DNA from: Singulisphaera sp. GP187
Lineage (GTDB): Bacteria > Planctomycetota > Planctomycetia > Gemmatales > Gemmataceae
Direction: 5' to 3'
DNA: 36,308 bases
Assembly: GCA_945861245.1 (NCBI GenBank)
Contig: CAMAUE010000044.1
Location: 1 to 36,308, forward strand
This document shows positions 8,738 to 33,947 of the stretch, piece after piece (the first letter of the stretch is position 1; each line of letters opens with the position of its first letter). Below the pieces are notes generated by a model, which was not told the DNA's origin, ran no database searches, and saw nothing but the letters and a program-made list of their open reading frames with translations. The translations under genes were made by a program, and so were the position numbers.

Positions 8738-8791
8738 GAGTGTGTTTCTCGGAACGCCCTTGAAGTAGACGATGCATGCACTCGCCGGACT

Positions 8792-10501: not shown

Positions 10502-10522
10502 GGAGAGACTCCCTGGGGACAA

Positions 10523-11800: not shown

Positions 11801-11808
11801 GGTGATTT

Positions 11809-13461: not shown

Positions 13462-14531
13462 GGCGTACCTCCTCCAGAGTGCAACTGCCAGCGCAACGCT
13501 TTCTTGCGACCGACGCCAATGAGCGTGTCTGCCGATTCGTTCAGGGCGATGTCGAAAACAAGCGTGTTCGATAGGAATTCGTGCAGGACGGCTTTCTTCC
13601 GGAGATCGAGAATGAAGACCTTCTTCCCTTCGCCGGCGCCCACGGCCGCGATCAGCCAGGGTTGTTTCGGATGAAAGCAGATGCTCTCGAAGAAGCCATT
13701 GATCTTGATCGGAAAGTCATGAGTCTGCTTGTTCGCCTTCCAGTCAAAAAGCTGCACCAGCGCCTTGCTGTTGACAATGGTTGACGTGTCGCCCGCGAGG
13801 TTTCCGGAAACGGCTATGAGCAAACCATCGGGTGAGAACGCGATTGAGCGGATGCCGCCATAGGTGTGGCCATTGGTGTCGGAAGTATAAAGGTGAGGAG
13901 CGTGAATCTTGGCGACTTGCTTCCCCGATGCGGTGTCCCAGATCAGGGCGACACCAGCCTGATCGCCCGTCGCCAGGTACTTGCCGTCCGCGGAGAAGCG
14001 ACAGCAGTAGAGCTTGGAGATTAGCCCATAGGGCGTCAGCTTGTCGTGCCCTTTCAATTCACGAATTAGCTTTCCCGATTCAGCATCCCAGAGGCGACAG
14101 ATCATGTCGTCGCCTACACTCGCCAGGATTTTGCCGTCGGGCGAAAGAGCCACGCCGCGAATCCATTTCTTATCGTGAGCCTCCAGACTGTGGACTTTCG
14201 TTTTTGTCGAGACATCCCACCAGATGAGCTGGCGATCGGAGCCTGCCGAGATCAGGTGCTTCCTCGTTAACGCCAGTCCGCTGATGTAACTGACATGAGC
14301 ATCCCAGGCGATCGGCTTTGACTTGGCCTCGTCGAAATCAATGAGATAGATCTTGCCGTCCGTTCCTCCGGCATACGCTTTCGCCGTTCCAGGAATCGTC
14401 GCGACACAGAGCAAATCAGGTCCCACGCCGACTTCGCGCAACAGCTTGGCCTGCGGAACAGCCGACGCTTGCGCGAACACGCTTGTGGCCGCAAGTAAGA
14501 CGCTCAGCGCGGAGAGGGTACAGTGACTCAT
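13458..14531 (-). CDS. Exported WD40-repeat beta-propeller protein (module copy A)
   Basis: The start at 14531 has GAGG upstream and a signal peptide (TLSALSVLLAATSVFA-QA). The 357-residue protein is mostly WD40 repeats: AHVSYISGLALTRKHLISAG ending IWWDV, then AHDKKWIRGVALSPDGKILA ending CRLWD, then ADGKYLATGDQAGVALIWD, GGIRSIAFSPDGLLIAVSG and others, enough for about seven blades. It probably serves as a protein interaction platform in the periplasm. It sits between DUF1501 (53 bases upstream) and DUF1549/1553 (4-base ATGA overlap). The other WD40 gene, at 28727-29818, occupies the equivalent position in the second module, so the pair is expected to act with its flanking partners. Confidence 0.9.
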   Translation of the reverse strand: MSHCTLSALSVLLAATSVFAQASAVPQAKLLREVGVGPDLLCVATIPGTAKAYAGGTDGKIYLIDFDEAKSKPIAWDAHVSYISGLALTRKHLISAGSDRQLIWWDVSTKTKVHSLEAHDKKWIRGVALSPDGKILASVGDDMICRLWDAESGKLIRELKGHDKLTPYGLISKLYCCRFSADGKYLATGDQAGVALIWDTASGKQVAKIHAPHLYTSDTNGHTYGGIRSIAFSPDGLLIAVSGNLAGDTSTIVNSKALVQLFDWKANKQTHDFPIKINGFFESICFHPKQPWLIAAVGAGEGKKVFILDLRKKAVLHEFLSNTLVFDIALNESADTLIGVGRKKALRWQLHSGGGTP

Positions 14532-14584
14532 CGATGCCTCGCATCAGGTGGGACGGACGTTTCTCGGTGCGGAACCGTTCTGCG

Positions 14585-15931
14585 TTACGCCAGCACGGCA
14601 GCAACTGGTTCGGTGCCGTAATCGGTGAGCGGCACGGGTCGGCCGTCGGTGTTGTTGATTTCCTTCTGATGATCGATACCAACGGCGCGCATGACAGTGG
14701 CGAAGAACTGTTGCAAAGTAACGCTGCCGGTGACCGCCGCGGTGCCGTCGTCATTTGTGCTGCCATGCACCACGCCAGGCCTAATGCCGCAACCGGAAAG
14801 GGTCACGCTCATCCGCGGGTAATGATCTCGGCCTTGAGCGTTGTTGATGCCTGGGGTTCGGCCCATCTCGGAGAACGTGACGACGAGCGTGTTGCGGAGC
14901 AGGCCACGTTCTTGCAGGTCTTCGAGAAGCACGCTGAGAACGTAATCGAGTTCTGGGACCATTTCCTGGTGAAACTCGAAGTTTTGGCCATGATGATCCC
15001 ACCAGCCGCGATTGACGCGAACGTAGGGGACGCCCGCTTCAATGAGACGCCGCGCCACCAGCGCCTGCTGGCCGAACGGCGTGGAGCCGTACCGCGTCCG
15101 CATCTGGGTCGATTCCTGTTCGATGTCAAAAAGCCGGGCGCTATCCATCATGCCGCGCACGCGCTCGTAAGCCCCGCTATGGCTCAGAAGCACGCCGTCT
15201 CGGCTGCGTCCGATGCCGAACCGTTGGCTCAACTGAACCCGCAACGCTTCTCGCTCGCGATGGTCGGCATCGCTGAGCGAATCGGGCAACGAATTTGCGG
15301 GTGGGGCGAGCCGCACGCGGGAGTGGCCGACCGTGAAGGGAGCCGTCGGAGCGATTCGATCGGGTACGATATTTATCGGATTCCAGGTCGTACCCAGAAA
15401 GCCGGCCGACTCGAAGTAATTCGCGCCCAGGTAGTTCGTGAACATGACATGATGCGGAACCTGGCTGTTGGGATTCGCCAGTTCGCGTGCCAGCATCGGG
15501 CCCAAGGTCGGATAGCGCACTGGGCCAGTCTTGGGTTTGCCTCCATAGATTGTGAAATCGGTATGATCGCCGAACCCTTGCTGGCAGCGAAAAATGGCGG
15601 TGTGGCGATGAATGGAACTCGCCATGCGAGGCATCAATTCCGAAATGCGATAGCCCGGAATCGACGTCGGGATCGACATGAACGGTCCACCGGTCGGCCG
15701 GCACGGTTTGGGATCCCAACTCTCGAATTGGCTCATACCGCCATTGAGGAAGATCATCAGCACGCGTTTCTGGTCGCGCTGAAGCTGATTGGCAAAGGCT
15801 GGCGCGGCCAAAGCGTTCAAGCCCAGAGCGCCGCCAAGCAACGCGCCGCCGGTCGTGCCGAAGAACGCACGCCGACTAAGAAGATGCTCCGGCGAGCTAC
15901 ACACCACTGAACGTGAAGATGACGCAGGCAT
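14585..15931 (-). CDS. DUF1501 family exported protein (module copy A)
   Basis: The start at 15931 has a strong AAGGAG site. The N-terminus carries a Tat-like signal (SRRAFFGTTGGALLGGALGL, then APAFA). DUF1501 motifs are MIFLNGGMSQFESWDPKP at about 58-75, FSEMGRTPGINNAQGRDHYP around 370 and TLSGCGIRPGVVHGSTNDDG after it. The usual GEFGRTP reads SEMGRTP here. The length of 448 is typical. It is the first structural gene after the GntR regulator, 96 bases downstream on the same strand, and heads the DUF1501-WD40-DUF1549/1553 module. A separate promoter in the 96-base gap cannot be excluded, but none is convincing. Confidence 0.93.
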   Translation of the reverse strand: MPASSSRSVVCSSPEHLLSRRAFFGTTGGALLGGALGLNALAAPAFANQLQRDQKRVLMIFLNGGMSQFESWDPKPCRPTGGPFMSIPTSIPGYRISELMPRMASSIHRHTAIFRCQQGFGDHTDFTIYGGKPKTGPVRYPTLGPMLARELANPNSQVPHHVMFTNYLGANYFESAGFLGTTWNPINIVPDRIAPTAPFTVGHSRVRLAPPANSLPDSLSDADHREREALRVQLSQRFGIGRSRDGVLLSHSGAYERVRGMMDSARLFDIEQESTQMRTRYGSTPFGQQALVARRLIEAGVPYVRVNRGWWDHHGQNFEFHQEMVPELDYVLSVLLEDLQERGLLRNTLVVTFSEMGRTPGINNAQGRDHYPRMSVTLSGCGIRPGVVHGSTNDDGTAAVTGSVTLQQFFATVMRAVGIDHQKEINNTDGRPVPLTDYGTEPVAAVLA

Positions 15932-16027: not shown

Positions 16028-16771
16028 CTAGCAGGGTTTGCGCGTTTCATTTTTTACTTCGGCAGCGAGCAAGCGCTCGATCACCGCGTCCATGTGCCGT
16101 TTCATCGCTTGTTCGGCGGCATCGGGATCACCTTGGCGAATCGCTTCCAGGATTGCCGCGTGGATCGCTCGGCTGCGCGAACGATTGCGCGGCTGGGGTG
16201 TCGTGTGAACCATGCCAGCCAGGATGTAGCCGTGAAGGACCTCGATCAGGTTGCGCATCAACACATTGCCGCTCAATTCGACGATTTTTTGATGGAACCG
16301 GAAATCCGCTCGAACCGCATCGACATACTCTTGGTCTTCGCGATCAATTTCATCACACAAGGCAATGAGTTCCGCCAACCCTTCCGAGGTGATTTGTCCG
16401 GCCACCTTGCGGGCCGCAAAACACTCGATGACGGTGCGCAACTCCGCATAATGCAACAGGTCCTGAGGCGAGATGGCCAAGGCGGTATGGAGGAAGTCCA
16501 CACAGCTTCCGAGATGATCGCGGTTGGCAACGTAGGTTCCACTGCCTCGCTTAACATGCACAAGGCCGAGGCTTTCCAGGCGCCCAATGGCCTCCCGAAG
16601 CACCGGCCGACTCACCTGCAAGGCCTCGGCGATGGCCAGTTCTCCCGGCAATCGATCGCCCGGTTGCAGTTTCTCAGTGCCAATATAATCCCGCACGCGC
16701 TCCGCGACTTGTTCCACTCGGGAATGCGAGGGGAGCGGTTTCATCGATCTTCGCAGCGTCTTCAGGTTCAT
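16028..16771 (-). CDS. GntR-family transcriptional regulator, FadR/FCD subfamily
   Basis: The protein has 247 residues. The N-terminal winged helix-turn-helix spans about 33-83 (LQPGDRLPGELAIAEALQVS, then RPVLREAIGRLESLGLV and RGSGTYVA). The C-terminal all-helical FCD domain spans about 105-235 and carries the usual metal/ligand-site pattern: D-F-R-F-H in DFRFHQKIVELSGN, a later I-H-A-A-I, and a terminal M-K-R-H. FCD regulators often respond to uronates, lactate, gluconate or other small carboxylates. The protein is cytoplasmic. It diverges from the lyase gene and heads the long minus-strand run, so it is the obvious candidate regulator of both. The start is uncertain: ATG 16771 or 16744, neither with a strong ribosome binding site. 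Confidence 0.92.
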   Translation of the reverse strand: MNLKTLRRSMKPLPSHSRVEQVAERVRDYIGTEKLQPGDRLPGELAIAEALQVSRPVLREAIGRLESLGLVHVKRGSGTYVANRDHLGSCVDFLHTALAISPQDLLHYAELRTVIECFAARKVAGQITSEGLAELIALCDEIDREDQEYVDAVRADFRFHQKIVELSGNVLMRNLIEVLHGYILAGMVHTTPQPRNRSRSRAIHAAILEAIRQGDPDAAEQAMKRHMDAVIERLLAAEVKNETRKPC

Positions 16772-16814
16772 AAATACCCGACGGCAAGAAACCCAAACTT
16801 GAAAGATGTCTTAC

Positions 16815-16842
16815 ATGTTACCATGCGGGTGCACTGCGTCAA
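16815..16842 (-). promoter_or_regulatory. Candidate sigma70-type promoter of the GntR gene
   Basis: On the minus strand TTGACG (16842-16837) and TAACAT (16820-16815) are separated by 16 bases, a plausible -35/-10 pair giving a leader of about 40 bases. The -10 overlaps an imperfect palindrome, CTTACATGTTAC (16810-16821), that might serve for autoregulation. This is read by eye only. Planctomycete promoters are poorly defined, so confidence is limited. Confidence 0.35.
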
Positions 16843-16867: not shown

Positions 16868-16903
16868 TTGCATGCAGACTGGCACAGAATGTTGCATGCA
16901 GTT
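16868..16903. promoter_or_regulatory. Paired TTGCATGCAG operator candidates between the regulator and lyase genes
   Basis: Two copies of TTGCATGCAG, at 16868-16877 and 16892-16901, are spaced exactly 24 bases apart in the 226-base divergent control region. The second overlaps a possible -35 of the lyase promoter (TTGCAT at 16892, 16-base spacer, TATGAT at 16914-16919). The core is part of the palindrome CTGCATGCAG found exactly at 27328-27337 and with one mismatch at 19983-19992, both also in control regions. The two-turn-like spacing suggests binding by a dimeric regulator, most simply the adjacent GntR protein. The binding itself is inference. Confidence 0.5.
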
Positions 16904-16997
16904 CAGTCCTTCATATGATCACTGATGCTGGCCCTGCCGCTGAGATATTTCCGCTCCCAATCAGTGCTCGAACGTTTCGAATGATTGGAACCTCGCC

Positions 16998-18734
16998 ATG
17001 CTTCAGAAATACCTTTCTGCTCTGATGTTTCTCCTAGCGGCTCCTCTTGCCTTCGCGCAGGAGTCTCCCTGGCCTGCCATAGTCGCGGGTCACAAGGCGC
17101 CGGAGCCCGGTGAACATCCGCGCTTGCTGTTTCGCAAAAGCGATCTCCCCGCGCTGCGCGAGCGTGCCAAGACGCCCGAGGGAAAAGCAATCATCGAGCG
17201 ATTGCGAAAGTGTCTGAACGGCTCCGACGGCGAATCCATGCCCACATCGTTCAACCCCGAAAAAGGTCCCGTTGGCAGCGACGGCTCCGGCGAATTCGCC
17301 GTCAAGGCGCCGCTCGGAGCCTACACGTTCTCCCACATGGCTGGCTATGGCTTGCTCTACCATCTGACGGGCGACAAGAAATATGCGGAGTTGGGCAAGC
17401 AGTGCTTTGAGAAAGCCCTCGAAGGCTACCGCGATCGCGATCGCCGTTATGCGTTCAAAGCACCCTACGGGCCTCTGCGTGCGGGACCCGTCCTGGGTTG
17501 GACCGCCCTGGGCTATGATCTGTGCTACGACGGCTGGGATGACGAGTATCGCAAGAAGGTTTGCCTGGCCCTGGCGAACTATGACGAGAACGATCCGAAG
17601 AAAAATACAAATCTCCCCAAACTTGTGCAAAGCAGCATGCCGCCTTTCAGCAACCACTACGGCATGCAAGTCGGCGGTGCGGGTCTCGCCCTTCTCGCGA
17701 TCCGCAATGACCCGGGTGTCGATCCCAAGAAAATTGACGCCCTCCTGGCCCAAAGCGAAAAGAGCATGATCCGCAATCTCACCGAAGGCTTCGGCGACGG
17801 CGGTTTCTTCGCCGAGGGGGATGGCACCGGCTCGATGTCCTCGCACATCGTTTTTCTGACCGCACTCCAGGCATGGAGCGTCTCGGCCGGCAAGGACTTC
17901 GTCTCGCCTCGTCCGAACGCGCAGTGGGCTGCTCTCAAGTGGATCTTTCTCACCGTGCCTCGCAATGGCCAGATGGACTTTTGGCCCAAGCGCGGCGGCT
18001 ATCCGCAGAACATCTGGTCGCGCGAAGGCATCAGCGGCGCCGGCTACTTCGCCTATCCGTTCGGTGTTCTCCCCGACGATCAGAAAGCCGCGTTGCTGTG
18101 GTTCTACAATCACCACCTCAAGTCCAACGACGAGAAGAAAGGCACACCATTCGATACGTCGAACCCATATCCCCACCTCGCTGTCTGCTCGTTTGTGAAT
18201 TGGCCGACGAGTTTGAAGGAAAGAAATCCGGCGGAAGTGCTGCCGCGCTGCTACCGCGACAGCAAATGGAACTTCCACGCCTTCCGCAATCGCTGGCAGG
18301 ATGAAAACGACATCGTCATCTCGGTCCTCACTCGCAACGTCAAGGGCTACATCAAGGCCGACGGTGACGGCGGCTTGCAGGTCGCGGCGTTCGGCAAGAA
18401 ATCCAAGTGGGGCAAGGTCAAGGGGACCGAAAAGTACTGGAGGCCCGCCGCCGATGGTTCGGGCATTCTCACCCTCGCCGATGGAACCAGCCTGGCCGTC
18501 GATTTCTCGAAAGCCAGCGGCGCCGACGCGATGCTGGTAACCTCAGGGACGGCGGACGGTACGAAAGTGAAACTGGCCGGCACGACGTTGACCTTCAAGT
18601 TCCTGACGACCGGGAATGAACCAAAGCTGCAAGTGCAGGGCGAGCGCGTGGTGATCGGCCAGCAGGTGGTGTCCATCAAGGATGGCAACCTGGTTCTTGG
18701 CAAGATGGCCGACCCGTGGAAGGCTTCGCGCTGA
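16998..18734 (+). CDS. Secreted heparinase II/III- or alginate-lyase-like polysaccharide lyase
   Basis: A signal peptide (YLSALMFLLAAPLAFA-QE) opens the protein. After it comes EHPRLLFRKSDLPALRERAK, a phrase typical of (alpha/alpha)-toroid lyases of the heparinase II/III and alginate-lyase groups. The helical toroid spans about 30-400; NHYGMQVGGAGLALLAIRND near 218 and GDGGFFAEGDGTGSMSSHIV near 266 are likely active-site segments with His and Tyr. A beta-sandwich follows from about 410 (FHAFRNRWQDENDIVISVLT), as in PL8/PL12/PL15/PL17/PL21 lyases. The expected role is beta-elimination of a uronic-acid glycan outside the cytoplasm; the exact substrate cannot be told. It is divergent from the GntR regulator and 38 bases ahead of a DUF3500 gene, its likely co-transcribed partner. 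Confidence 0.75.
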   Translation: MLQKYLSALMFLLAAPLAFAQESPWPAIVAGHKAPEPGEHPRLLFRKSDLPALRERAKTPEGKAIIERLRKCLNGSDGESMPTSFNPEKGPVGSDGSGEFAVKAPLGAYTFSHMAGYGLLYHLTGDKKYAELGKQCFEKALEGYRDRDRRYAFKAPYGPLRAGPVLGWTALGYDLCYDGWDDEYRKKVCLALANYDENDPKKNTNLPKLVQSSMPPFSNHYGMQVGGAGLALLAIRNDPGVDPKKIDALLAQSEKSMIRNLTEGFGDGGFFAEGDGTGSMSSHIVFLTALQAWSVSAGKDFVSPRPNAQWAALKWIFLTVPRNGQMDFWPKRGGYPQNIWSREGISGAGYFAYPFGVLPDDQKAALLWFYNHHLKSNDEKKGTPFDTSNPYPHLAVCSFVNWPTSLKERNPAEVLPRCYRDSKWNFHAFRNRWQDENDIVISVLTRNVKGYIKADGDGGLQVAAFGKKSKWGKVKGTEKYWRPAADGSGILTLADGTSLAVDFSKASGADAMLVTSGTADGTKVKLAGTTLTFKFLTTGNEPKLQVQGERVVIGQQVVSIKDGNLVLGKMADPWKASR

Positions 18735-18772
18735 ACGTCAGTATCGTCAACCAGAAACAACACGAGGTTCCG

Positions 18773-19867
18773 ATGCACAGCACGCCACAGCCAGATCGCC
18801 GGCGCTTTCTTCAGCAAACCGCGGGGACCGCAGTCGCTGCTTCGTTGGCGGGAACGATTGGCGAGGCAAGTGCAGCGATACAGGAGCCGGCGAAGCAGGA
18901 CAGTCCGTCCGCAGCTCCCATTCGCGCGCTCTATGCTTCGCTCACGAAGGAACAGCGGAACACCATGTGTTTCGCCTGGGATCATATCGGCTTCACGAAA
19001 CTGCCGTTGCGCCTCCATGTGACCAACAACTGGGAAATCAGCAAGGCGGCGATCTCCAGCTTCACCAAGCCGCAACAGCGACTCATCGACGACATCCTGG
19101 CGAGCGTGCTGAGTCAAGGTTGGCCGGACCGTATCAAGCGCCAGGCGCGCGAAGACACGGGCCGCGCCTGGGGCAGTCAGAAAATCGCCATCTTCGGCTC
19201 CCCGGAGAAAGGCCCGTGCCAGTGCGTCATCACCGGCTTCCACCTCACGCTGCGGGCAACCTGTGAACGTCAGCCGACCGTCGCCTTTCATGGGGCGTTG
19301 TCGCACGGCCATCAGCCGAGCGGATTCAACGAAAAAGTCGGCCATCCCGATAATATCTTCTGGAATCAAGCCGTCCTGGCCAACAAGGTCTATCAGGCTC
19401 TCGACGAGAAACGCCGCCGGCAATCTCTGGTTGTCAAGGGCATGCCGTTTTACATGATCGACGGCCGAATCGACCGCCGCAACATTCTTCCCGATACCGT
19501 TCTGCCGGTGCCGCTCGAACCGGATGTTCGTTTCAAAGGGGCCAAGGGAACCTTCCCCGGGTTGCCAATCCGCGACATGACGCGCGAGCAAAAGAACGCT
19601 GTCGATCAGGTGCTCACCGGCATGCTGGAACCGTATCGCCGAGAATACCAGGAGCAAATCCGCCACTGCTTGCGGCGTCAGGGCGGGGTGGAAGCGTGCA
19701 ACCTGGCTTTCTATCAGGAGCACGATCTGGGCAACGACGGCGAATGGGACAACTGGCGCATCGAAGGGCCCTCGTTCGTCTGGTACTTCCGCGGCTTTCC
19801 GCACGTGCATGTCTGGATCCATGTGGCTGAGGACCCCAAGACACCGGTCACGTCGCATTTTGGTTGA
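18773..19867 (+). CDS. DUF3500 family protein with Tat-type signal
   Basis: The start at 18773 follows CGAGGT; a longer upstream frame overlaps the lyase end and has no ribosome binding site. Residues 8-35 form a twin-arginine-type signal (DRRRFLQQTAGTAVAASLAG). The body follows the DUF3500 plan: ALYASLTKEQRNTMCFAWDH, a helix pair QQRLIDDILASVLSQGW, IAIFGSPEKGPCQCVITGFH followed by LTLR, HGHQPSGFN, and NQAVLANKVYQALDEKRR; the final third contains GDGEWDNWRIEGPSFVWYFR-like and HVHVWIHV strands. It is more divergent than the copy at 8792-9703. Its function is unknown; co-transcription with the lyase suggests a part in glycan processing. DUF3500 assignment is by pattern and less certain than for the other copy. 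Confidence 0.75.
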   Translation: MHSTPQPDRRRFLQQTAGTAVAASLAGTIGEASAAIQEPAKQDSPSAAPIRALYASLTKEQRNTMCFAWDHIGFTKLPLRLHVTNNWEISKAAISSFTKPQQRLIDDILASVLSQGWPDRIKRQAREDTGRAWGSQKIAIFGSPEKGPCQCVITGFHLTLRATCERQPTVAFHGALSHGHQPSGFNEKVGHPDNIFWNQAVLANKVYQALDEKRRRQSLVVKGMPFYMIDGRIDRRNILPDTVLPVPLEPDVRFKGAKGTFPGLPIRDMTREQKNAVDQVLTGMLEPYRREYQEQIRHCLRRQGGVEACNLAFYQEHDLGNDGEWDNWRIEGPSFVWYFRGFPHVHVWIHVAEDPKTPVTSHFG

Positions 19868-19975
19868 GAGAGACAGCCGTTCGTCGTCATTCGACGCCGG
19901 CTGGCTTGCCAGCGGATCCGGTGAACAGCATAAGCAAGTTTTGAAGGACCCGCTACCAAATCGGCCTTTCGGGGT

Positions 19976-19992
19976 TATAATTCTGTATGCAG
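19976..19992 (+). promoter_or_regulatory. Perfect -10 box followed by CTGTATGCAG operator candidate
   Basis: TATAAT at 19976-19981 is a consensus -10; the -35 region (about 19953) is weak. One base after it comes CTGTATGCAG (19983-19992), one mismatch from the perfect palindrome CTGCATGCAG at 27328-27337. A protein bound here would cover the transcription start. It lies 24 bases before the ATG of the DUF1592/1588 gene and is the likely promoter of the 20016-25249 unit. Confidence 0.5.
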
Positions 19993-20015
19993 GTTCTGCG
20001 AGTCTGTATCCCGTG

Positions 20016-22232
20016 ATGGAGTCTTGCGTGATTCGGTCCAGATTTTTCTTGATGCTCGTGGTGGCTGCTTGTTCAGCAGTCGGCTTTGCGCTTTTGGTTG
20101 ACTCCGCGCTGACGCAGGAAAAGGCCGCCGAACGTAAGTTCACGTCGGCGGTCGAAAGCAAGGCGGAGTACGAACGGACCGTTGCGCCTTTCCTCAAGAA
20201 GCACTGCATCATGTGCCATGGCCCGAAGGTTGCCGAAGGGGAGCTGGCGTTTCATGAACTCGATATCGACATGAAAGCGAGCACGAGTTCCGGACGCTGG
20301 GCGATGGTGATTGAGAAGCTGGCTACTCGCGAAATGCCGCCGGAAGGACGCGCGAAGCCGAGCGACGATGAATTGAAGGCGGTCACCAGCTGGATTCAGG
20401 CTGAAATGAAACGCGCGGGCAAAAACTTCTCGCGCCGACACGCCATCGCCAATGGCAACAAGATTTCTCACGACAAGCTTTTCGACATCAAGCAAGCGGC
20501 TCCTTTTGACAATCCGATCCGCATTCGCGTTCTCAGCCCCGAGATCTACACGGGCTTCTCGACCGACATCGCCAAGGGACTCTCGCTCGGCCAACCGTTC
20601 ACGCCCGAGGGGCGGACGACCTTCAAGGACATGGGCGCTCCCAAGATCGATGAGCCGGTCGCCGTTCAACTTATGAACAACGCCCTGGTGATCGTCGAAC
20701 GCCAAACCGCCCACAAGATCGAGGGAGGCAAGCTGGTCGCGTTGCCTGGTGCGGTCAAGGACATGTTATCCTTTGTGGACGAGAGCGTGCCGCTCACGCC
20801 AGTGTTGATGGACAAGGCGATAAGCGGGCAATTTCAAAAGATTCTCAATCGTGCCCCGACCGTCGATGAAAAAGCCCGCTTCGTCAAGCTGATGCAAAAG
20901 AACGTGAAGGACGCTGGGCGAGCCACCGGCATGCGCTATGCCCTGGTCGCCGTTTATCTGATGCCAGAAGCAATCTTTCGCTACGAAATTGGCGCTGGCA
21001 AGGGCGACGACAGAGGCCGAATCCGCCTGGCGCCGCGGGAGATCGCTTATGCATTGGCCTACGCTCTGACCGACAAACGGCCTGACGCTAAGTTGCTGAG
21101 TGATGCGATTGAGGGGAAGCTCGACACAAAGGAAGGCGTCGCCGCTGCCGCTCGCCGGTTGCTTGATGAACCGAAGCTGGAAAAGCCGCGCATCTTACGA
21201 TTCTTCCGCGAGTACTTTGGCTACGATAAGGCGAAGGAGATTTTTCAGGAGGACAAGGCGAATCCGGAACACGATCCGCGCGCGCTCGTTGAAGATACCG
21301 ACAAACTGATCGAGTACATTCTCGCCCAGGACAAGAACGTGCTCTACGAGTTGCTGAGCACCAACAAGAGCTTCGTCGCCTACAAGACCGCGGCCGACAC
21401 CAAAAAGAAGCGAGCCGAAGCGATCAAGAAGTTCGAGGAACAAAAGAAAAAGGACCCGGCCAAATTCGCGAATAAGTTGCCGCAGAAAATAGGCCGCAGC
21501 GTCTACACGGCGTACAACCTGACCGACTTCCCCGATCAGCAACCCGTCGAGTTGCCAGCGGAAGAACGTGCGGGCATTCTGACGCAACCGTCCTGGCTGG
21601 CGGCCAACGCGAAGACGGACGAGAACCACGCGATCTTCCGGGGCAAGTGGGTGCGCGAACGGCTGCTCGGCGGCGTCGTGCCCGATGTGCCGATCACCGT
21701 CGATGCGCAGTTGCCCAACACGCCCGATAAGTCATTGCGCGAACGGATGAACGTTACCAGGCAGGAATACTGCTGGAAGTGCCATCAGTTCATGAATCCG
21801 GTCGGGCTGCCATTCGAGATCTACGATCACTTCGGCCGTTATCGCGACAAGGAACCCGTCGTCGATCCCGATGCGACGGCCAAGAAGGTCGACAAAAAGG
21901 GAAAATCGCTCGGCATCGTGTTGCGTGAAATTCCCGTCGATTCGACCGGCGGCATCAGCGGAACGCGCGACCCGGCCGTCGATGGTGACGTGAAGAATGC
22001 GGTCGCGATGCTGCGGAAACTTGCGAAGTCGGAGCATGTCGAACAGGTCTTCATTCGCCATGCCTTCCGCTACTGGATGGGCCGCAATGAGAACCTCGGC
22101 GATGCTTTAAGCTTGCAAACCGCCCAAAAGGCATACGGCGAAAGTAATGGCAGCATGAAAGCACTGATCGTTTCGCTGTTGAGTTCCGATTCGTTCTTGT
22201 ATCGCACCCCGACCGTTGAAAATAAGAAGTAA
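20016..22232 (+). CDS. Planctomycete cytochrome c-like protein with DUF1592/DUF1588/DUF1585
   Basis: This 738-residue exported protein has an N-terminal membrane/signal segment (FFLMLVVAACSAVGFALLV). A cytochrome domain with CIMCH at 64-68 follows, with REMPPEGRAKPS nearby. A DUF1592-type region spans about 260-420 (GMRYALVAVYLMPEAIFRYE, APREIAYALAYALTDKRPDA). DUF1588 spans about 525-620 (AGILTQPSWLAANAKTDENH, RGKWVRERLLGG) with a second heme-type motif CWKCH and FMNPVGLPFEIYDHFGRYR. DUF1585 forms the C-terminus (VEQVFIRHAFRYWMGR). This is the known partner of DUF1552, which follows after 23 bases. Alternative start: GTG at 20028, with GGAG 7 bases before it, is as good as ATG 20016. Biochemical role unknown; probably periplasmic electron transfer. 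Confidence 0.9.
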   Translation: MESCVIRSRFFLMLVVAACSAVGFALLVDSALTQEKAAERKFTSAVESKAEYERTVAPFLKKHCIMCHGPKVAEGELAFHELDIDMKASTSSGRWAMVIEKLATREMPPEGRAKPSDDELKAVTSWIQAEMKRAGKNFSRRHAIANGNKISHDKLFDIKQAAPFDNPIRIRVLSPEIYTGFSTDIAKGLSLGQPFTPEGRTTFKDMGAPKIDEPVAVQLMNNALVIVERQTAHKIEGGKLVALPGAVKDMLSFVDESVPLTPVLMDKAISGQFQKILNRAPTVDEKARFVKLMQKNVKDAGRATGMRYALVAVYLMPEAIFRYEIGAGKGDDRGRIRLAPREIAYALAYALTDKRPDAKLLSDAIEGKLDTKEGVAAAARRLLDEPKLEKPRILRFFREYFGYDKAKEIFQEDKANPEHDPRALVEDTDKLIEYILAQDKNVLYELLSTNKSFVAYKTAADTKKKRAEAIKKFEEQKKKDPAKFANKLPQKIGRSVYTAYNLTDFPDQQPVELPAEERAGILTQPSWLAANAKTDENHAIFRGKWVRERLLGGVVPDVPITVDAQLPNTPDKSLRERMNVTRQEYCWKCHQFMNPVGLPFEIYDHFGRYRDKEPVVDPDATAKKVDKKGKSLGIVLREIPVDSTGGISGTRDPAVDGDVKNAVAMLRKLAKSEHVEQVFIRHAFRYWMGRNENLGDALSLQTAQKAYGESNGSMKALIVSLLSSDSFLYRTPTVENKK

Positions 22233-22255
22233 CCCAAACCGATGGAGTTTCCAAA

Positions 22256-23653
22256 ATGGCCATGAATCGTCGTGACGTGCTGAAGGGAATGACGCTGAGC
22301 GCCGGCAGCGTGCTGTTGTCGCCAATCCTCGACAAGCTCCAGGCCCAAGCGGGAGGGCGAGCCATCACGCCGAAGCGATTCGTCTTCGTCGTCGAAAGCA
22401 ACGGCGTACGGCCCGAGCAGATCGCACCCGTCGGCGTCCAGCGAACCCCGCGCCCGCAGCAAGCACTCAACGGGCCGGCGGAATTCGTGGACCTCGCCTT
22501 GGCCGACCGCCGGCTGCCGATGTCGCTGGAGCCGATCAACGAGTTCAAGAATCGCGTCACGATCGTACAAGGGTTGTCGGGCCGAGTCTGCGGCGGCGGG
22601 CACTCTAACAACTTCCAGGCGCTCGGCGCCTTCGGAGCGGGCCGCGGCAACGGCGGCGAAAGCATGGCCATCGAGGGCGAAACGATCGACGGCGCCCTCG
22701 CCCGCACCATCCCAGGCATCTTCCCCCACATCGGCCTGGGTATCTCCAAACGCCTCGAAAACAACGTGATCTACAACATCTCGGCCATCGCCGCCAATCG
22801 CGCTTTGCCGACGATGTGCAAGCCCGATCAGGCCTACGCCAATCTGTTCGGCAGCGTCGCCGGCGGCAACGCCCAGCGCGAGTTCGCGGCCCGCAACAAC
22901 CTGCTCGACTTCATGCGTGAAGACGTCGGCCGCGCCCGTACCCGCCTGGCCGGTGAAGAACGCGAACAGCTCGATTCGTACCTCGAATCCTTCGAGACGC
23001 TGCGCAATCGCCAAAGCCGGCTCAACGAGATTCAACACACGCTGCGCGAACGCGGTCCGGTCGTGAACAACAAGTACACGAGCGCTGTTGAGACCGACCG
23101 TCTCGACGCCCAGTTTGATATCGGCGCGGCTGCTATCATTTGCGGCTTGACCAATGTGCTGACGATCTCGTCCGCCGCCGGCATTCGCGATTTCGACATC
23201 ACCTTCCGTGGGCTCGGCCTCAACATCGACAAGCACACGATCGGCCACGGCGGCAGCTTCCAGGGCCACACCTGGGCCGACCTCTACAACATGATCCGCC
23301 GTTACCACTTCACGCTGATTGCCGAGCTGGCCCGCAAGCTCGATCGCGTCCGTGAAGGCAATGGCACCATGCTCGACAACACGCTGATCGTTTATCTCAG
23401 CGACGGCGCCGAAGGCCATCACTCGCGCTGCTGGGAATGGCCGATGGTCCTCTTGGGTAACGTCGGCGGCCGATTGCGAACGGGCCGCTACGTCGATTAC
23501 CCCGGCTACGGTCGGCAGGGCCATCGCACGACTGCGAACATGTATGTGACACTCCTGCAACTCGCTGGCTCGAACCGCGACACGTTCGGCATGCGCGATC
23601 AGGGCTTGCGCGATCTTGACCAGACCGGCCCGCTGACGGAACTGCTGGCGTAA
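22256..23653 (+). CDS. DUF1552 family exported protein
   Basis: GGAG lies 10 bases before the start. The N-terminus MAMNRRDVLKGMTLSAGSVL is Tat-like with a single recognisable RR pair. The 465-residue body matches DUF1552, a family related to DUF1501 and the alkaline phosphatase-like fold: KRFVFVVESNGVRPEQIAP in place of the GGPSQ motif, RVTIVQGLSGRVCGGGHSNN near 105, NTLIVYLSDGAEGHHSRCWE near 380 and GHRTTANMYVTLLQLAG near the end. DUF1552 genes habitually follow DUF1592/1588/1585 genes, as here, and the two products probably form a complex. The following DUF1501 gene starts after 81 bases. Confidence 0.9.
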   Translation: MAMNRRDVLKGMTLSAGSVLLSPILDKLQAQAGGRAITPKRFVFVVESNGVRPEQIAPVGVQRTPRPQQALNGPAEFVDLALADRRLPMSLEPINEFKNRVTIVQGLSGRVCGGGHSNNFQALGAFGAGRGNGGESMAIEGETIDGALARTIPGIFPHIGLGISKRLENNVIYNISAIAANRALPTMCKPDQAYANLFGSVAGGNAQREFAARNNLLDFMREDVGRARTRLAGEEREQLDSYLESFETLRNRQSRLNEIQHTLRERGPVVNNKYTSAVETDRLDAQFDIGAAAIICGLTNVLTISSAAGIRDFDITFRGLGLNIDKHTIGHGGSFQGHTWADLYNMIRRYHFTLIAELARKLDRVREGNGTMLDNTLIVYLSDGAEGHHSRCWEWPMVLLGNVGGRLRTGRYVDYPGYGRQGHRTTANMYVTLLQLAGSNRDTFGMRDQGLRDLDQTGPLTELLA

Positions 23654-23734
23654 TCCTTTTCACGCTTACGGCGCAGCGCTCGCGCGACGCCATGCGATCG
23701 CCAATCCGCAAGCGGCAAACAATGAGGCCATTCC

Positions 23735-25249
23735 ATGCTCGACGTCACCAATGGCTCGTCGAATCTCATGTGTGATGGGATGCGCCGGCGCGACTTCTTG
23801 CGCGTTGCGAGCCTGGGGCTAGGCGGGCTAACGCTTTCTGACTTGATGCGCGCCTCCGCGGCACAGTCGCCCGGCGAAAGCTATGTTCGCGACAGGGCGG
23901 TTGTGCTGCTGTTCCTGGCCGGCGGACCGAGCCAGTTCGAAACGTTCGATCCGAAGCCCAATGGCCCGGAAGGCTGCACCAGCATCAATGGCCACATTCA
24001 GACGTCGCTGCCCGGTGTGCGTTTCTCGGGGTATCTACCTCGCCTGGCGCGGATGGCGGATCGACTGTCGATCGTGCGCTCTTTCCAGACGCATCACGCA
24101 GAGCACAACGGGGCACACAAGCAAATCATGACAGGTGACCTGTCGATAGGCGATGGTCAGCCGATCCGCGAACCGGGCATCGGGGCGATTTATGCACGTG
24201 CCGCCGGCGCGATCAACACCGCGACCGGAATGCCGCGCCACGCCTTGCTGCCGCCGACGACGCGCTACCCCGGCGCGGGACGAGGCTTCGCCGGCTCGTT
24301 TGAGTCGGTCGTGGAAGGCGCCCAGTCCGTGTACCTCGGGCCGTCGTTCGCGCCAGTGCAAGCGTTCGCGACGATGGCGGGCGGCGACCAGGCGATGCGC
24401 GCCCGCAACAATAACAACGCTCGCACTCGGCCCGAAGACGCGCCCAATCCGTTCCTCGACAGCCTCGAAGCCCGCATCCCTGGCGCGGAGCTTGACGCGC
24501 GCATGAATCTCCTCGACCAGATGGATCAACTCAATCGCCGGCTCGACAATCCCGCCACGGCGACATTTGGCGTCCATCAACGTCAGGCGGTCGAACTGCT
24601 CCGCAGCGGTACCCTGCGCCGGGCGTTCGACCTGAGCCAGGAGTCGCGCGCCACGCTCAATCTTTACGACACCGAACACTTCCGCAACTGGGATTGCGAT
24701 GACAACTCCCGATTCATGCGCACGTCGCCATCGATCGGTTTTTCGCTGGGCCGACAACTATTGCTCGCCCGGCGGCTGTGCGAGGCGGGCTGCGGCTTCG
24801 TCACCGTCGTCAACGCCAACTGGGATTTTCACGCTCGCCGCGGCATCCCGAACATTCCCGAAGGCATGGGCGTCTTCGCGCCGCCGCTTGATCATGCCGT
24901 CAGCGCCTTTTTGGAAGACATTCGCCAGCGCGGCCTGGAGGACAAGATTCTGCTCGTTATCACCGGCGAGTTCGGCCGCACGGCGCTGGATCGCAACGCT
25001 GGCCGACATCACTGGCCGCGCCTGTGCCCGCTCGTGCTCGCCGGCGGCGGCCTGCGCCACGGACAAGTGATTGGCGATTCCGACCAGCGTGGCCGCGAAC
25101 CGGCCACCGAGCCGATCACCATTGACGACCTGCACGCCACGCTCATGCACACCCTCTTCGATGTGGGGCGAATGCGGCTCGACGTGTCCCTGCCGGCGCG
25201 CATTCACGATCGCGCCCAGCGCGGCACGCCGATTCGAGAGCTCTTTTGA
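23735..25249 (+). CDS. DUF1501 family exported protein
   Basis: TGAGG lies upstream of ATG 23735; ATG 23780, just before RRRDFLRVASLGLGGLTLSD, is an alternative that would put the Tat-like signal at the very N-terminus. DUF1501 motifs are complete: LLFLAGGPSQFETFDPKPNG about 53-72, LVITGEFGRTALDRNAGRHH around 407-425 and LVLAGGGLRHGQVIGDSD. The C-terminal TIDDLHATLMHTLFDVGRMR is the usual family ending. It closes the 20016-25249 unit and converges with the ThuA gene, whose stop lies only 6 bases away, leaving no room for a separate terminator. Its function is not established for the family. Confidence 0.93.
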   Translation: MLDVTNGSSNLMCDGMRRRDFLRVASLGLGGLTLSDLMRASAAQSPGESYVRDRAVVLLFLAGGPSQFETFDPKPNGPEGCTSINGHIQTSLPGVRFSGYLPRLARMADRLSIVRSFQTHHAEHNGAHKQIMTGDLSIGDGQPIREPGIGAIYARAAGAINTATGMPRHALLPPTTRYPGAGRGFAGSFESVVEGAQSVYLGPSFAPVQAFATMAGGDQAMRARNNNNARTRPEDAPNPFLDSLEARIPGAELDARMNLLDQMDQLNRRLDNPATATFGVHQRQAVELLRSGTLRRAFDLSQESRATLNLYDTEHFRNWDCDDNSRFMRTSPSIGFSLGRQLLLARRLCEAGCGFVTVVNANWDFHARRGIPNIPEGMGVFAPPLDHAVSAFLEDIRQRGLEDKILLVITGEFGRTALDRNAGRHHWPRLCPLVLAGGGLRHGQVIGDSDQRGREPATEPITIDDLHATLMHTLFDVGRMRLDVSLPARIHDRAQRGTPIRELF

Positions 25250-25255
25250 GCCCAT

Positions 25256-26032
25256 CTACTTCTGCAGCGATTTTTCCTCGCGGTGGGCAGCCCATATGAT
25301 GGCCCGCGTCAACATGTCGCGAATCGGCGGGTTCTTGTCGAGGTCATTCGGGTCATAACGCGTGTAAAGCGTGCGTTGGTTGTCTCGCTCCTTGACGACG
25401 CGGGACCACATCTGCGGCATCTTGTCCTTGCCCGCGGGGCCGCCGACCATTAGCACCTCGACATCAGGCGCCACCTCTGTGTGCTGGTAAAGTCCGCCGC
25501 CCGGCACGAACGGTTTTACGCCGGCCAACAACGGGTGGTCCTTGTGCTTGTCCACGATCTCGATCATTACGTCCTTGCCGAAGTAGTGCCCGCGATAATT
25601 GACGCCAAAAACCTCCTTGCTGACATCGAGCCAGTTCTGGAAACCGTGGTGTGCCTTGCGCATGCCGACGACGGGTTTCGACAGAAACGCTTTCTTGAGA
25701 ATCGCCAGATGTTCCAGGGTCGGCGAGGTGCGGTAAAGGTTGGAGAGAATGACATCCGCATCCGCGAGCGCATCGAGGCCGACGAACGGCGTTTCGACGT
25801 TCTTCTTGTCCTTGTCCTTTTTGTCTTTCAACTCCTCAGGTCCGACCACACTGCAACGCACACGGTAGGTGTCCTCAAGGTACTTCTTGTACTTGAGTAG
25901 TTGCCCTTTGCCCTCCGTCACACAGATAACCAGATGCAACGGTTTCTTGTCGGCGGGCTGCCCGTGTCCCGGTGCAAGAAAGCCTGCGAGCATAATAAAC
26001 ATGACGGTCGAAGAAACCAACACGCGAAGCAT
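25256..26032 (-). CDS. Secreted ThuA-like protein
   Basis: This 258-residue protein has a signal peptide (VSSTVMFIMLAGFLAPGHG-QP). The ThuA-like core has HLVICVTEGKGQLLKYKKYL, DALADADVILSNLYR, KAFLSKPVVGMRKAHHGFQN, HPLLAGVKPFVPGGGLYQHT, and a C-terminal strand before IRDMLTRAIIWAAH. A lysine/aspartate run (KDKKDKDKKN, near 70) makes a charged surface loop. It is more distant from the two ThuA genes at the left of the window than they are from each other. It lies 117 bases downstream of the esterase gene on the same strand and probably shares its transcript. The ribosome binding site is weak (AGGC). A sugar-related role is inferred from family context only. Confidence 0.82.
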   Translation of the reverse strand: MLRVLVSSTVMFIMLAGFLAPGHGQPADKKPLHLVICVTEGKGQLLKYKKYLEDTYRVRCSVVGPEELKDKKDKDKKNVETPFVGLDALADADVILSNLYRTSPTLEHLAILKKAFLSKPVVGMRKAHHGFQNWLDVSKEVFGVNYRGHYFGKDVMIEIVDKHKDHPLLAGVKPFVPGGGLYQHTEVAPDVEVLMVGGPAGKDKMPQMWSRVVKERDNQRTLYTRYDPNDLDKNPPIRDMLTRAIIWAAHREEKSLQK

Positions 26033-26149
26033 ATTGAAGCCTATTCATGACTCCCCCAAAGGAACTCGAAAGAACGCGGACGGAATATCTGGTGAGATCG
26101 ACGCCAATTCAACACCGACAAAACCGTTGAGTAGTGCCACTTCTCACAG

Positions 26150-27283
26150 CTAACGGCGCAGCGGCACAAGATGCTTTTCGAACCACGCCGTCATCTCGGC
26201 TTGCATCTCTGGCAGATACTCATGCGCCGTGTTGGCGTACACGATACTGCGGAAACCGTCCTTCTTACCGTGGAGGTTGTAGACCGAGCCGAGCTTTTTC
26301 TCAAGGACCTCGATGCCGCTGAGCGGCAAGCCGCCGTCGCGGTCGCCGGAAAGAGCCAGGAATGGGCGCGGCGCGATGAGGGAGTAAATCGCTTCGGTGT
26401 CGAAATGGGCGAGCACGCCGGGCACCCAATAGTAGATGCCGTGGAGGCGAAAGTTGCCATGGGCGAACAGTTCCCGATAACGGGTGAAACCGGCGACGCA
26501 GACAGCCGCCTGCACGCGATTATCCACCGCAGCGAGCCACCAGGTTCCGGTACCGCCCATGCTCATGCCGCTGATGCCGATACGTTCGGAATCGATTTCG
26601 GGGCGTGTTTGCAAGTAGTCGAGCAAACATTGCTGATCGCGGATCATCAGGCCCCAGAGGGATCGGCCGTGGAGCAGATGCAGTTTGAAGAGGGTCGATT
26701 CGTCGAGTCCGCGTGCCAGTTCCTTGCTCTTGGGTGCCCGCGCGCCGCAGAAGTAGGAGTCGATGGCGGCGACGACGAAACCCTTGCGAGCGAGCATCGG
26801 GCCGACGCATTGCGGGTTGTTGACCTCGGTGCAGATCGTCGCCGCGCTGCCGCCGTGCCCGTGGAGGCCGATGACGGCGGGCAACTTGCCGACACGTTTC
26901 TTGGGAATCAGCAGAATGCCGGGGACGACGGAGTCGATGCCATTGTGAAATTCGAAACGCTCTTCGGTGAAATCGCCGCGATCTTCCTTCGCGATGATCT
27001 TCACCCCGAGCGGCCTTGGACGGGCCGGCATGTCGCCCAGGCAGCGCAGCACGATCGCGTGGGTCGCGGTTCGATCCTTGTCCTGCCAGCGTTTCAGGTC
27101 CGTCGGCAGCGGCCATTCAGGGAATGGGAACTTCCGATACTCCTCGGGCGCGTCTTTCCACATTTCGCCGAGCGGTTTGCCGCCGCGCGATTGCTTGGGC
27201 TCGACGCGCTCCTGAGCAAGAACAGATGAACCCGCCAGGCTACACAAAACCAGAACAAGCCCTGGAAAATGTGAGGATGTCAT
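26150..27283 (-). CDS. Secreted alpha/beta hydrolase, acetyl-xylan-esterase/dienelactone-hydrolase type
   Basis: The start at 27283 has AAGGAAAAAG upstream and a signal peptide (GLVLVLCSLAGSSVLA-QE). The 377-residue protein has a complete alpha/beta hydrolase set: oxyanion-hole HGHGG at 141-145, nucleophile elbow G-M-S-M-G with Ser241, acid in GDRDGG (Asp314 or Asp316) and catalytic His354 in TAHEY. The region before the hydrolase core (50-120) is typical of the bacterial acetyl-esterase-like AXE1/DLH proteins found in polysaccharide loci. The expected role is removal of acyl (acetyl or methyl-ester) groups from a glycan outside the cytoplasm. It diverges from the DUF1501 gene at 27399 across a control region with the shared palindrome. 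Confidence 0.85.
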   Translation of the reverse strand: MTSSHFPGLVLVLCSLAGSSVLAQERVEPKQSRGGKPLGEMWKDAPEEYRKFPFPEWPLPTDLKRWQDKDRTATHAIVLRCLGDMPARPRPLGVKIIAKEDRGDFTEERFEFHNGIDSVVPGILLIPKKRVGKLPAVIGLHGHGGSAATICTEVNNPQCVGPMLARKGFVVAAIDSYFCGARAPKSKELARGLDESTLFKLHLLHGRSLWGLMIRDQQCLLDYLQTRPEIDSERIGISGMSMGGTGTWWLAAVDNRVQAAVCVAGFTRYRELFAHGNFRLHGIYYWVPGVLAHFDTEAIYSLIAPRPFLALSGDRDGGLPLSGIEVLEKKLGSVYNLHGKKDGFRSIVYANTAHEYLPEMQAEMTAWFEKHLVPLRR

Positions 27284-27318
27284 TGTGGCACTTTTTCCTT
27301 GCCAAAGATAATTCAAGG

Positions 27319-27354
27319 TTGAAATTTCTGCATGCAGATATTAGTATACAATTA
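27319..27354 (+). promoter_or_regulatory. Promoter with a perfect TCTGCATGCAGA palindrome in its spacer
   Basis: TTGAAA (27319-27324) and TAGTAT (27342-27347) are 17 bases apart, a fair -35/-10 pair for the DUF1501 gene at 27399. The 12-base perfect palindrome TCTGCATGCAGA (27327-27338) fills the spacer, a classic repressor position. Overlapping the -10 is a second symmetric element centred on GTATAC (27344-27349), which resembles sites reported for some FCD-type GntR regulators. The 115-base region also serves the divergent esterase gene. Confidence 0.5.
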
Positions 27355-27398: not shown

Positions 27399-28715
27399 AT
27401 GATCCCGAAATCCAAGAAACCTACCGGTTCGTGCAATCCTGACGAGCACGTACTTTCGCGCCGGCTGTTTTTGCGAGGCCTGGCGGCGGGAAGTGTGGCA
27501 CTGGGCGGCTTCGGGCAGTTGTTCTCGGCCGCGAATGCTCAGGAAGCCACGCGCCGGCAGAAGCACGTCATCCTCGTTTACATGAGCGGTGGGCCGAGTC
27601 AGTTCGAGACGTGGGATCCCAAGATCGGCCAGCGCACCTCCGGTCCACATATGACCATCCAGACGGCTGTGCCCGGTGTCCGTTTCGATGAGTACATGCC
27701 CAATTTCGCTCGGCTTGCCAATCGCATGAGCGTGATCCGCTCGATGACCACGCCTTCAAACGATCATGGGGTCGGTAGCCTGCACACCCAAAGCGGCTAC
27801 TTTCCCAGTCCGGCCATTTCCGCTCCCCCGCACTGGCTGTCGGTTTGCTCCCGATTGTTGCCACGAGAAAGTACGGACGGATTGCCGACGTATGTCATGC
27901 TGGGACGGCCTGACTTCACGCCTGGGCCGGGGTTCCTGGGCGCCGAGTATCAGGGCCTCGTGTTTCCCGGTAACGGCATGCCCCCGGCGGATCTTCCGCG
28001 AGCGAGTGAAGGCGATATCCAGGCGCAGGACCGCCGCGAAGGATTGCGGAGCCGACTGGGGGCGGCATTCAACGAAGGCCGACCGGCTCACCTCGTCGAG
28101 ACACACGACGTCTCATTTCGGCGGATGAGCAATTTGATGCGCACGCAGTCGGCCTTCGACATCTCGCGCGAACCTCGGCGCGATCACGATCGTTACGGCC
28201 CGAGTCCGCTTGCGAAGGACATGCTGCTGGCGAGGCGTTTTGTCGAGCAGGGGGTTTCCTTTGTGCGCGTTCAGCATCAAAACGGGCTGGCGTGGGACAA
28301 GCATCGTAACGCCTTCCGCAGTCAACGCTACATCACTGCCGAATTCGATCAGGCGGTCGGCGCCCTTGTCGATGACCTCGTCGATCGTGGTCTGTGGGAG
28401 CACACCCTCGTCGTGTGCATGGGCGAGTTCGGACGCACACCGATGATCAACGGTCAAGGAGGAGGCGGCCGCGATCACTGGCCCAGGAACTGGTCGATGT
28501 CGCTCGGCGGCTGCGGCATCCGCGGGGGCGTCGTCGTCGGGGCTACCAATCAGGACGGCACCGAAATTCAGAATCGGCCCGTCAGCATCCACGACCTGTT
28601 CTGCACGTTCTACAGAGCTTTGGGCATCAATCATCGCCGCCAGCTTTATCATCGCGATCGGCCGATTCCCCTGGTCGAAAATCAGCAAGGTCAACCCATC
28701 CAGGAACTGTTTTAA
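27399..28715 (+). CDS. DUF1501 family exported protein (module copy B)
   Basis: AGGA lies 8 bases before ATG 27399. A Tat-like signal follows a 20-residue polar lead (LSRRLFLRGLAAGSVALGGF). The DUF1501 motifs are LVYMSGGPSQFETWDPKIGQ near 50, VCMGEFGRTPMINGQGGGGR near 345 followed by DHWPRNWSMSLGGCGIRGGV, and SIHDLFCTFYRALGI near the end. Length 438. It starts the second DUF1501-WD40-DUF1549/1553 module, with the WD40 gene 11 bases downstream. It resembles the module A DUF1501 at 14585-15931 in details such as the SGGCGIR/LGGCGIR motif and the closing GINHRRQLYHRDRPIPL versus GIDHQKEI and GRPVPL. Family activity is unknown. Confidence 0.93.
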   Translation: MIPKSKKPTGSCNPDEHVLSRRLFLRGLAAGSVALGGFGQLFSAANAQEATRRQKHVILVYMSGGPSQFETWDPKIGQRTSGPHMTIQTAVPGVRFDEYMPNFARLANRMSVIRSMTTPSNDHGVGSLHTQSGYFPSPAISAPPHWLSVCSRLLPRESTDGLPTYVMLGRPDFTPGPGFLGAEYQGLVFPGNGMPPADLPRASEGDIQAQDRREGLRSRLGAAFNEGRPAHLVETHDVSFRRMSNLMRTQSAFDISREPRRDHDRYGPSPLAKDMLLARRFVEQGVSFVRVQHQNGLAWDKHRNAFRSQRYITAEFDQAVGALVDDLVDRGLWEHTLVVCMGEFGRTPMINGQGGGGRDHWPRNWSMSLGGCGIRGGVVVGATNQDGTEIQNRPVSIHDLFCTFYRALGINHRRQLYHRDRPIPLVENQQGQPIQELF

Positions 28716-28726
28716 CGAGGTGGTTC

Positions 28727-29818
28727 ATGCGATCCTGGATCATGCTGGTTGTCGGCGGTTTGTTCATCGTTTCCAGCGCCGATGCTCAAGACAATCCGAA
28801 GAGCCTCTTGTTCGAAAAGGACGAGCGGACCTTTTTCGTGCCAATGAACTATTCGCCGATTCGCACCGTTCGGCTACGTTTCCATCCGAGCGAGCCCAGA
28901 CTCCTCGCGCAGGTCAGTGATAAACGGTTGGCCGTCTGGGACCTGAACGCCAAGCCGCAAGCGACGAAGGGGCAGAAGGAACCTCGGGTGCTTCCTGATT
29001 ATGCGTGCGAACAGGCGGAAGGTTGGATCACCGGGTTCGATGTCCATCCCTCGGGCAAGTGGGTAATCACTGGTGGATCCGATCGCCAGCTGCGGCGCTG
29101 GGCCTGGAAGGATGCCAAACCGCTCCAAGTGATCGCCGGACATGACGGCTGGATCGAGGCCGTCGCCTATTCGCCCGACGGCAAGTTCGTCGCCACCGGC
29201 GGCGCCGATTTGAAAGTCAAAATCTGGGATGCGGAAAGCTTGAATCTTCTCGATCAGTTTTCCGGACATAGCCGTTTCGTTCGCGATCTGGCCTGGACAC
29301 CCAAGGGCGACTTCCTTTGCACCGGTGGTGAAGACGGCAAGGTGCTCGTCTATGATGTGCCCGGGAAAAAGGTCGCCCGAACGCTGACTTTCGGCAACAC
29401 CAACGAAGTGCAAGGACAGATCCCCAGCCACAGCGGCGTGTACCGCCTGGAGTGCAGCAACGACGGCAACTGGCTTTCCGTCACCGGCCAGGGGAAGTTC
29501 GGCCTTTACCACCTGCCGACCGGGAAACTCGCCGCCAGCGAAAATCTCTCCTTCGACTCTTGCTTTTATCCTGCGGGCCAGTTCTTGCTCGTCGGTTACA
29601 ACGACACCAAGGTTTTTCGCCTGAATCCTGCCAAGCTGGAAAAGGTATCGCTTGATACGCTGGGCAAAAAGGGGACGAGTAACAGCCCCGCGGGAGATGT
29701 CATCGCCAGCTTGAAACGCAACGATGGCTTCGGCATGGCCGTTCGGCGCGACGGCACCCTGGTTGCGGCCGCCGTTGGAGAATCGACCGTCGGTCTCTGG
29801 AAGGTGACGCAGAAATGA
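28727..29818 (+). CDS. Exported WD40-repeat beta-propeller protein (module copy B)
   Basis: The start at 28727 has CGAGGTGG upstream and a signal peptide (SWIMLVVGGLFIVSSADA-QD). The 363-residue protein holds WD40 repeats: TVRLRFHPSEPRLLAQVSDK ending LAVWDL, ITGFDVHPSGKWVITGGSDR, GHDGWIEAVAYSPDGKFVAT followed by KVKIWD, GHSRFVRDLAWTPKGDFLCT and later weaker blades ending GESTVGLWKV. It is the counterpart of the WD40 gene at 13458-14531, in the same position of a conserved three-gene module. It overlaps the following DUF1549/1553 gene by four bases (ATGA), again as in module A. A periplasmic scaffold role is inferred. Confidence 0.9.
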   Translation: MRSWIMLVVGGLFIVSSADAQDNPKSLLFEKDERTFFVPMNYSPIRTVRLRFHPSEPRLLAQVSDKRLAVWDLNAKPQATKGQKEPRVLPDYACEQAEGWITGFDVHPSGKWVITGGSDRQLRRWAWKDAKPLQVIAGHDGWIEAVAYSPDGKFVATGGADLKVKIWDAESLNLLDQFSGHSRFVRDLAWTPKGDFLCTGGEDGKVLVYDVPGKKVARTLTFGNTNEVQGQIPSHSGVYRLECSNDGNWLSVTGQGKFGLYHLPTGKLAASENLSFDSCFYPAGQFLLVGYNDTKVFRLNPAKLEKVSLDTLGKKGTSNSPAGDVIASLKRNDGFGMAVRRDGTLVAAAVGESTVGLWKVTQK

Positions 29819-31449: not shown

Positions 31450-31553
31450 GAGTAGCCCGTGGACGGCTGTTCCGGGTTTTGAGTCTTGGAGATTTTCTGA
31501 AATTCCTGTCAGGTTTTCCTCCACTCGCGGAAGAAGGAAGGAGGAGAACATGC

Positions 31554-33904: not shown

Positions 33905-33947
33905 CCTGTGGAAGTTCTTCGTTGATACCCGAAAAGGAGATTCTGAA

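Follow-up and report, generated by a model that had tools for sequence, protein, structure and literature searches.

The stretch analysed here, 36,308 nucleotides of Singulisphaera sp. GP187 (contig CAMAUE010000044.1; the whole of it is referred to as the window), encodes a GntR-type regulator amid runs of cytochrome/DUF1501-family genes. Judging from comparison with its orthologues, this protein is very probably an autoregulator of a single operon, with the palindrome ATGTCTTACAT before its own gene as operator. The palindromic octamer TGCATGCA, which recurs in control regions of the window and which a first-pass annotation of the same DNA had assigned to the GntR protein, would be a separate element and not the main operator of this regulator. 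With this result, binding experiments planned on the earlier reading would be redirected to another sequence.

The regulator (16028-16771, minus strand; 247 amino acids) combines an N-terminal helix-turn-helix (Pfam GntR, 4.5e-19) with a C-terminal FCD domain (Pfam FCD, 2e-27), the two features that mark the FadR subfamily, and it is the sole FCD match of its genome. A promoter scan placed the gntR promoter at 16815-16842 on the minus strand, with the -35 box TTGACG and the -10 box TAACAT 16 nt apart. The predicted operator ATGTAAGACAT, which reads ATGTCTTACAT on the plus strand, lies at 16806-16816 on the minus strand and overlaps the end of this -10 box; no second exact ATGT-N3-ACAT occurs in the window. 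A search of 149 genomes with the GntR sequence gave matches at E 1e-20 in 20, the present genome included. Among the six other genomes of the genus, such a match was found in G003 only (95% identity), and there the palindrome is unchanged. Upstream of the orthologues, which have 39-53% identity when G003 is set apart, a dyad count found ATGT-N3-ACAT in 13 of 21 regions, our own and that of G003 among them, whereas no dyad exceeded four regions in any of 200 mononucleotide-shuffled sets. The octamer TGCATGCA was present in two of the same 21 regions, and these were again our own and that of G003. The usual operator core among the orthologues is ATGTCTGACAT, and the layout of -10 box and operator is the same as in the window. 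With a looser pattern, a site was found in 18 of 22 regions (it was missing in L035, L037, L038 and L118), and 13 of these 18 have a TTGA-type -35 box 16-17 nt ahead of a -10 box whose end falls within the operator. In L113 and L114 the DNA upstream of gntR holds a pair of operator-like sites 38 bp apart (7877 and 7915), the outer of which abuts a TTGACA that serves as -35 box of the inner promoter.

The distribution of the extended pattern ATGTMWKACAT is most simply read in terms of a one-operon autoregulator. It occurs at 25 places in seven genomes (three in the present genome, six in G003, three in G044, three in G027, six in G061, two in G089 and two in G100). Seven of these places are at gntR, namely all three of G044 and one each of the present genome, G003, G061 and G100. 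Every copy in G044 lies just upstream of one of three close gntR paralogues. The 18 places away from gntR (12 coding and six noncoding, gene calls in the compared loci coming from a simple codon-score script and not from a gene finder) scored 3.6-17.6 on a score matrix, on which the gntR-upstream sites scored 20.4-29.8 in eight of ten named loci (L110-L119; nine from planctomycetes, and L113 labelled only 'bacterium'). The octamer was absent from nine of these ten loci; its two copies are both in L118, and one of them is coding. Furthermore, PSCyt1/DUF1549 genes adjoin gntR in L111, L113, L114, L116 and L117 and follow one gene later in L118, while L110, L115 and L119 end without a called gene after gntR. 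The gene adjoining gntR in the window is a DUF1501 gene, to which the next frame of G003 also aligns.

From the conserved dyad, the promoter layout and the neighbouring genes we infer the following mechanism. A GntR dimer would bind ATGTCTTACAT across the last bases of its own -10 box, and the bound protein would block transcription of the gntR-DUF1501-WD40-PSCyt2 run, presumably one operon. Binding of a small ligand, probably an acidic one, to the FCD domain would lift the repression. The DUF1501 gene (14585-15931, minus strand; Pfam 9.2e-80) is the first downstream of gntR and is likely regulated together with it. The remaining run (9755-14531, minus strand) holds WD40, PSCyt2/PSD1, PQQ propeller and 3-keto-disaccharide hydrolase genes, as assigned by Pfam and by alignment with G003, which has the same gene run and aligns over 16876-10519 at 95%. 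Cytochrome/DUF1501-family genes seem to be numerous in these genomes, a DUF1501 query having returned 66-191 unconfirmed first-look candidates per genome in eight genomes. The predicted regulator and operator, with ATGT-N3-ACAT on the gntR -10 box, offer a direct way into the question of when an operon of this kind is switched on. Literature searches with the ATGTCWGACAT core and with DUF1501 plus GntR yielded, among the titles listed, none on this system or on the regulation of these genes.

The proposed operator also resembles those of known relatives. In PMC4494728, PdhR, GlcC, LldR and DgoR are named as FadR-subfamily members, and GT and AC stand 3 nt apart in the sites of most groups, a spacing shared by ATGTCTTACAT. 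Unlike these four, the present regulator has ATGTCWKACAT as operator core and planctomycete cytochrome/DUF1501 genes as neighbours. PdhR, GlcC, LldR and DgoR sit on their own promoters.

Several observations weigh against the assignment of ATGTCTTACAT as operator of a single operon. The exact dyad is missing in eight of the 21 regions; L032, L034 and L111 come close to it, and not even a near form stands in L035, L036, L037, L038 and L118. No place in L118 or L119 scored above 14 on the matrix, and in G027 and G089 the gntR site departs from the exact ATGTMWKACAT. The gap in scores is partly circular, because the matrix was trained on the gntR sites that it scores. The palindrome had been spotted by eye before the dyads of every sequence were counted, and some of the regions, being almost identical, do not count as independent (L029, L030 and L115 in the set of 22; L113 and L114). 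Six of the places away from gntR are noncoding. The best of them, L256 in G003, scored 17.6 and is thus a possible second target. Within two genes after gntR, L112 has no PSCyt gene, and a hydantoinase-like and a kinase-like gene are found instead. Finally, about 26 bp separate the octamer at 16869 from the gntR -35 box downstream of it; the octamer is kept in G003 and could still matter for the gntR promoter.

The octamer sites themselves were confirmed, and one additional site, together with conservation in a sibling genome, makes the earlier observation somewhat stronger than it was. Four sites had been reported as noncoding, and we found all of them on the plus strand: two copies of TTGCATGCAG, at 16868-16877 and, 24 bp further on, at 16892-16901; CTGTATGCAG at 19983-19992, preceding a DUF1592/DUF1588 gene; and CTGCATGCAG, which starts at 27328 and ends at 27337. 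A fifth place, an exact TGCATGCA at 8773-8780, was absent from that report and lies 35 nt 5' of the ATG of a PSCyt1/DUF1549/DUF1553 gene (the gene at 8737). Exact TGCATGCA occurs four times in the window (8773, 16869, 16893 and 27329), every time in noncoding DNA. The 19983 site falls within a long open frame that starts at 19809; it is taken as 5' noncoding because the ATG at about 20019 opens on an apparent signal peptide, as judged by eye. Promoter elements had also been proposed at the sites. Around 27328, TTGAAA-N17-TAGTAT (27319-27347), with the decamer in its spacer, scores as a promoter-like pair. The TATAAT box at 19976-19981, however, has no -35 partner in the promoter scan and is TACAAT in G003.

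The TGCATGCA sites may be either an element shared for use by another factor or a cluster that arose by chance and survived by relatedness. The latter explanation, according to which the palindrome is more frequent in noncoding DNA and in repeats, clusters here by chance and is kept in G003 through close kinship only, stands in our judgement at an even balance. The local excess tells against it, as TGCATGCA forms a cluster in the control regions of the window beyond chance. With 67 exact copies in the genome (6.04 Mb, 289 contigs; 14 in the reversed control), about 0.4 would be expected in the window. Its noncoding DNA, 2328 bp by our gene list with both window ends counted as noncoding, holds four copies in three regions. 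Over all palindromic octamers, dinucleotide shuffles reached four copies in 3 of 1000 and three regions in 7 of 1000 cases. CTGCATGCAG with at most one mismatch occurs five times in the window (one place, 5532, is coding) against 1.58 expected, a number reached by 2 of 100 shuffles. No excess was seen for TGCATGCA with at most one mismatch across the whole window (14 versus 17.6 expected; 88 of 100 shuffles reach 14). In favour of a chance cluster, the sites take varying positions with respect to promoter-like pairs, of which the scan showed none in two of the regions.

Conservation in orthologous control regions, as expected for the regulon proposed in the first-pass annotation, was found in part. 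The octamer at 16869 and the decamers at 19983 and 27328 are unchanged in G003, where the last base of the first TTGCATGCAG copy has changed. Of the segments of the same length in these three control regions, fractions of 0.22, 0.26 and 0.63 are also unchanged, so that the evidence from joint conservation is modest and kinship would explain it as well. The octamer at 16893 has no counterpart in G003, because 16877-19949 is absent at this place. The missing segment spans about 3.07 kb and holds a lyase-like gene and a DUF3500 gene; G003 has about 150 other bases here, flanked by its matches to the control regions of gntR and DUF1592. The lyase-like protein has no Pfam family and no sequence relatives in the PDB. 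In G006, where no GntR match was obtained at E 1e-20, the 8737 gene has an orthologue (90%) whose control region can be aligned with that of the window (50 of 57 positions identical). The 8773 octamer is broken there and reads AGCATGTA, which again fits a chance cluster. Less easily reconciled with chance is the orthologue of the 8737 gene in G003, which has TGCATGCA 37 nt from its ATG, as compared with 35 nt in the window, despite flanks that do not align; G003 holds 47 exact octamers in its approximately 6.5 Mb. Apart from these two genomes and the window itself, TGYATRCA was absent upstream of eight further relatives of the 8737 gene.

Genome-wide, the octamer gave little indication of a regulon. 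The one-mismatch scan for CTGCATGCAG found 200 places versus 186 in the reversed control, and the degenerate form is therefore without excess. Of the 63 exact TGCATGCA copies outside the window, 49 were classified, 21 as noncoding and 28 as coding. The noncoding share of 0.43 is slightly above the 0.327 expected from codon and dinucleotide shuffling, which speaks somewhat against pure chance in the window. An initially strong enrichment (25 of 53 copies, window included, versus 57 of 278 for other palindromic octamers with four GC) shrank to this level after correction for codon usage. Seven of the 21 noncoding copies lie, by eye, in repeats or hairpins, in agreement with a palindrome that is common in such DNA: five belong to one dispersed noncoding repeat that ends near TTCGTGGCCAACACCC or close forms (L001, L002, L023, L102 and L106), and two are inside GC hairpins of the CGCTCGCCTTTGGCGAGCG type (L098 and L101). 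The exact decamer YTGCATGCAG occurs at 18 places, eight of them noncoding, including three in the window. Since the noncoding share is only slightly above expectation and partly due to repeats, TGCATGCA is not a clear promoter motif genome-wide, and a genome-wide TGCATGCA regulon was discarded as unsupported.

A more tentative explanation is that TGCATGCA is a true operator, recognized by another DNA-binding protein that controls a local regulon of several operons. This would account for the local excess, for the noncoding position of all exact copies in the window and for the three aligned control regions kept in G003, for which the joint chance would be about 0.04 if the fractions above were multiplied as independent. 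Its weaknesses are the broken 8773 octamer in G006, the poor showing of TGCATGCA as a promoter motif across the genome and the absence of TGYATRCA from a paralogous module in G003 (L224). A candidate protein is also lacking, none having been sought.

The first-pass annotation had tied four or five transcription units to one regulator, most simply the GntR protein. This assignment does not follow, because a better operator candidate, present in a single exact copy, stands at the regulator's own promoter; and since the relatives point to this sequence before gntR as the likely binding site, the shared control circuit is unproven. An amended form, in which GntR binds ATGTCTTACAT as main operator and the octamers as secondary sites, appears unlikely to us. 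It has in its favour that no other FCD protein was matched in this genome, and that a GntR protein can conceivably bind such a sequence: according to PMC4609117, the FadR/VanR-like Ms0535 of Mycobacterium smegmatis footprints CCTTGCATGCATTCTTGCATGCAAGG, which holds two copies of TTGCATGCA in an inverted repeat 19-44 bp 5' of the start codon, and acts as an activator. The window resembles that system in having a FadR-type GntR and two octamers at 16868 and 16892. The octamers of Ms0535 are 12 bp apart by our count on the sequence in PMC4609117, in contrast to 24 bp here, and ours lie about 97-121 bp from the start codon on either side. Moreover, beyond G003 they are not found with the GntR orthologues. 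The octamer is also unlike the GT-N3-AC form, four orthologues that share SRPVLREA (L026, L044, L027 and L033) have no octamer upstream, and G003, which keeps three of the sites, has three FCD proteins. We consider it very improbable that in this planctomycete lineage a single FCD GntR recognizes two palindromes unrelated to each other, silencing itself through ATGTCTTACAT and coordinating several cytochrome/DUF1501 operons through TGCATGCA, with relatives that rely on the first only, each for one operon.

The remainder of the window contains two modules alike in order (DUF1501, WD40, DUF1549/1553), one at 9755-15931 and the other at 27399-31449. An ECF-sigma-like and a FecR-like gene (31446-33437) come after the second module, a further copy of which is present on another contig of G003, the L224 stretch mentioned above, at about 71% DNA identity. 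Another FCD GntR gene of G003, at L226, is followed by frames that by eye resemble an ECF sigma factor and a FecR-like protein. At 33822-36080 the window encodes a protein with a G8 domain and a CEMIP-type beta-helix (Pfam), domains that are known mainly from animal proteins.

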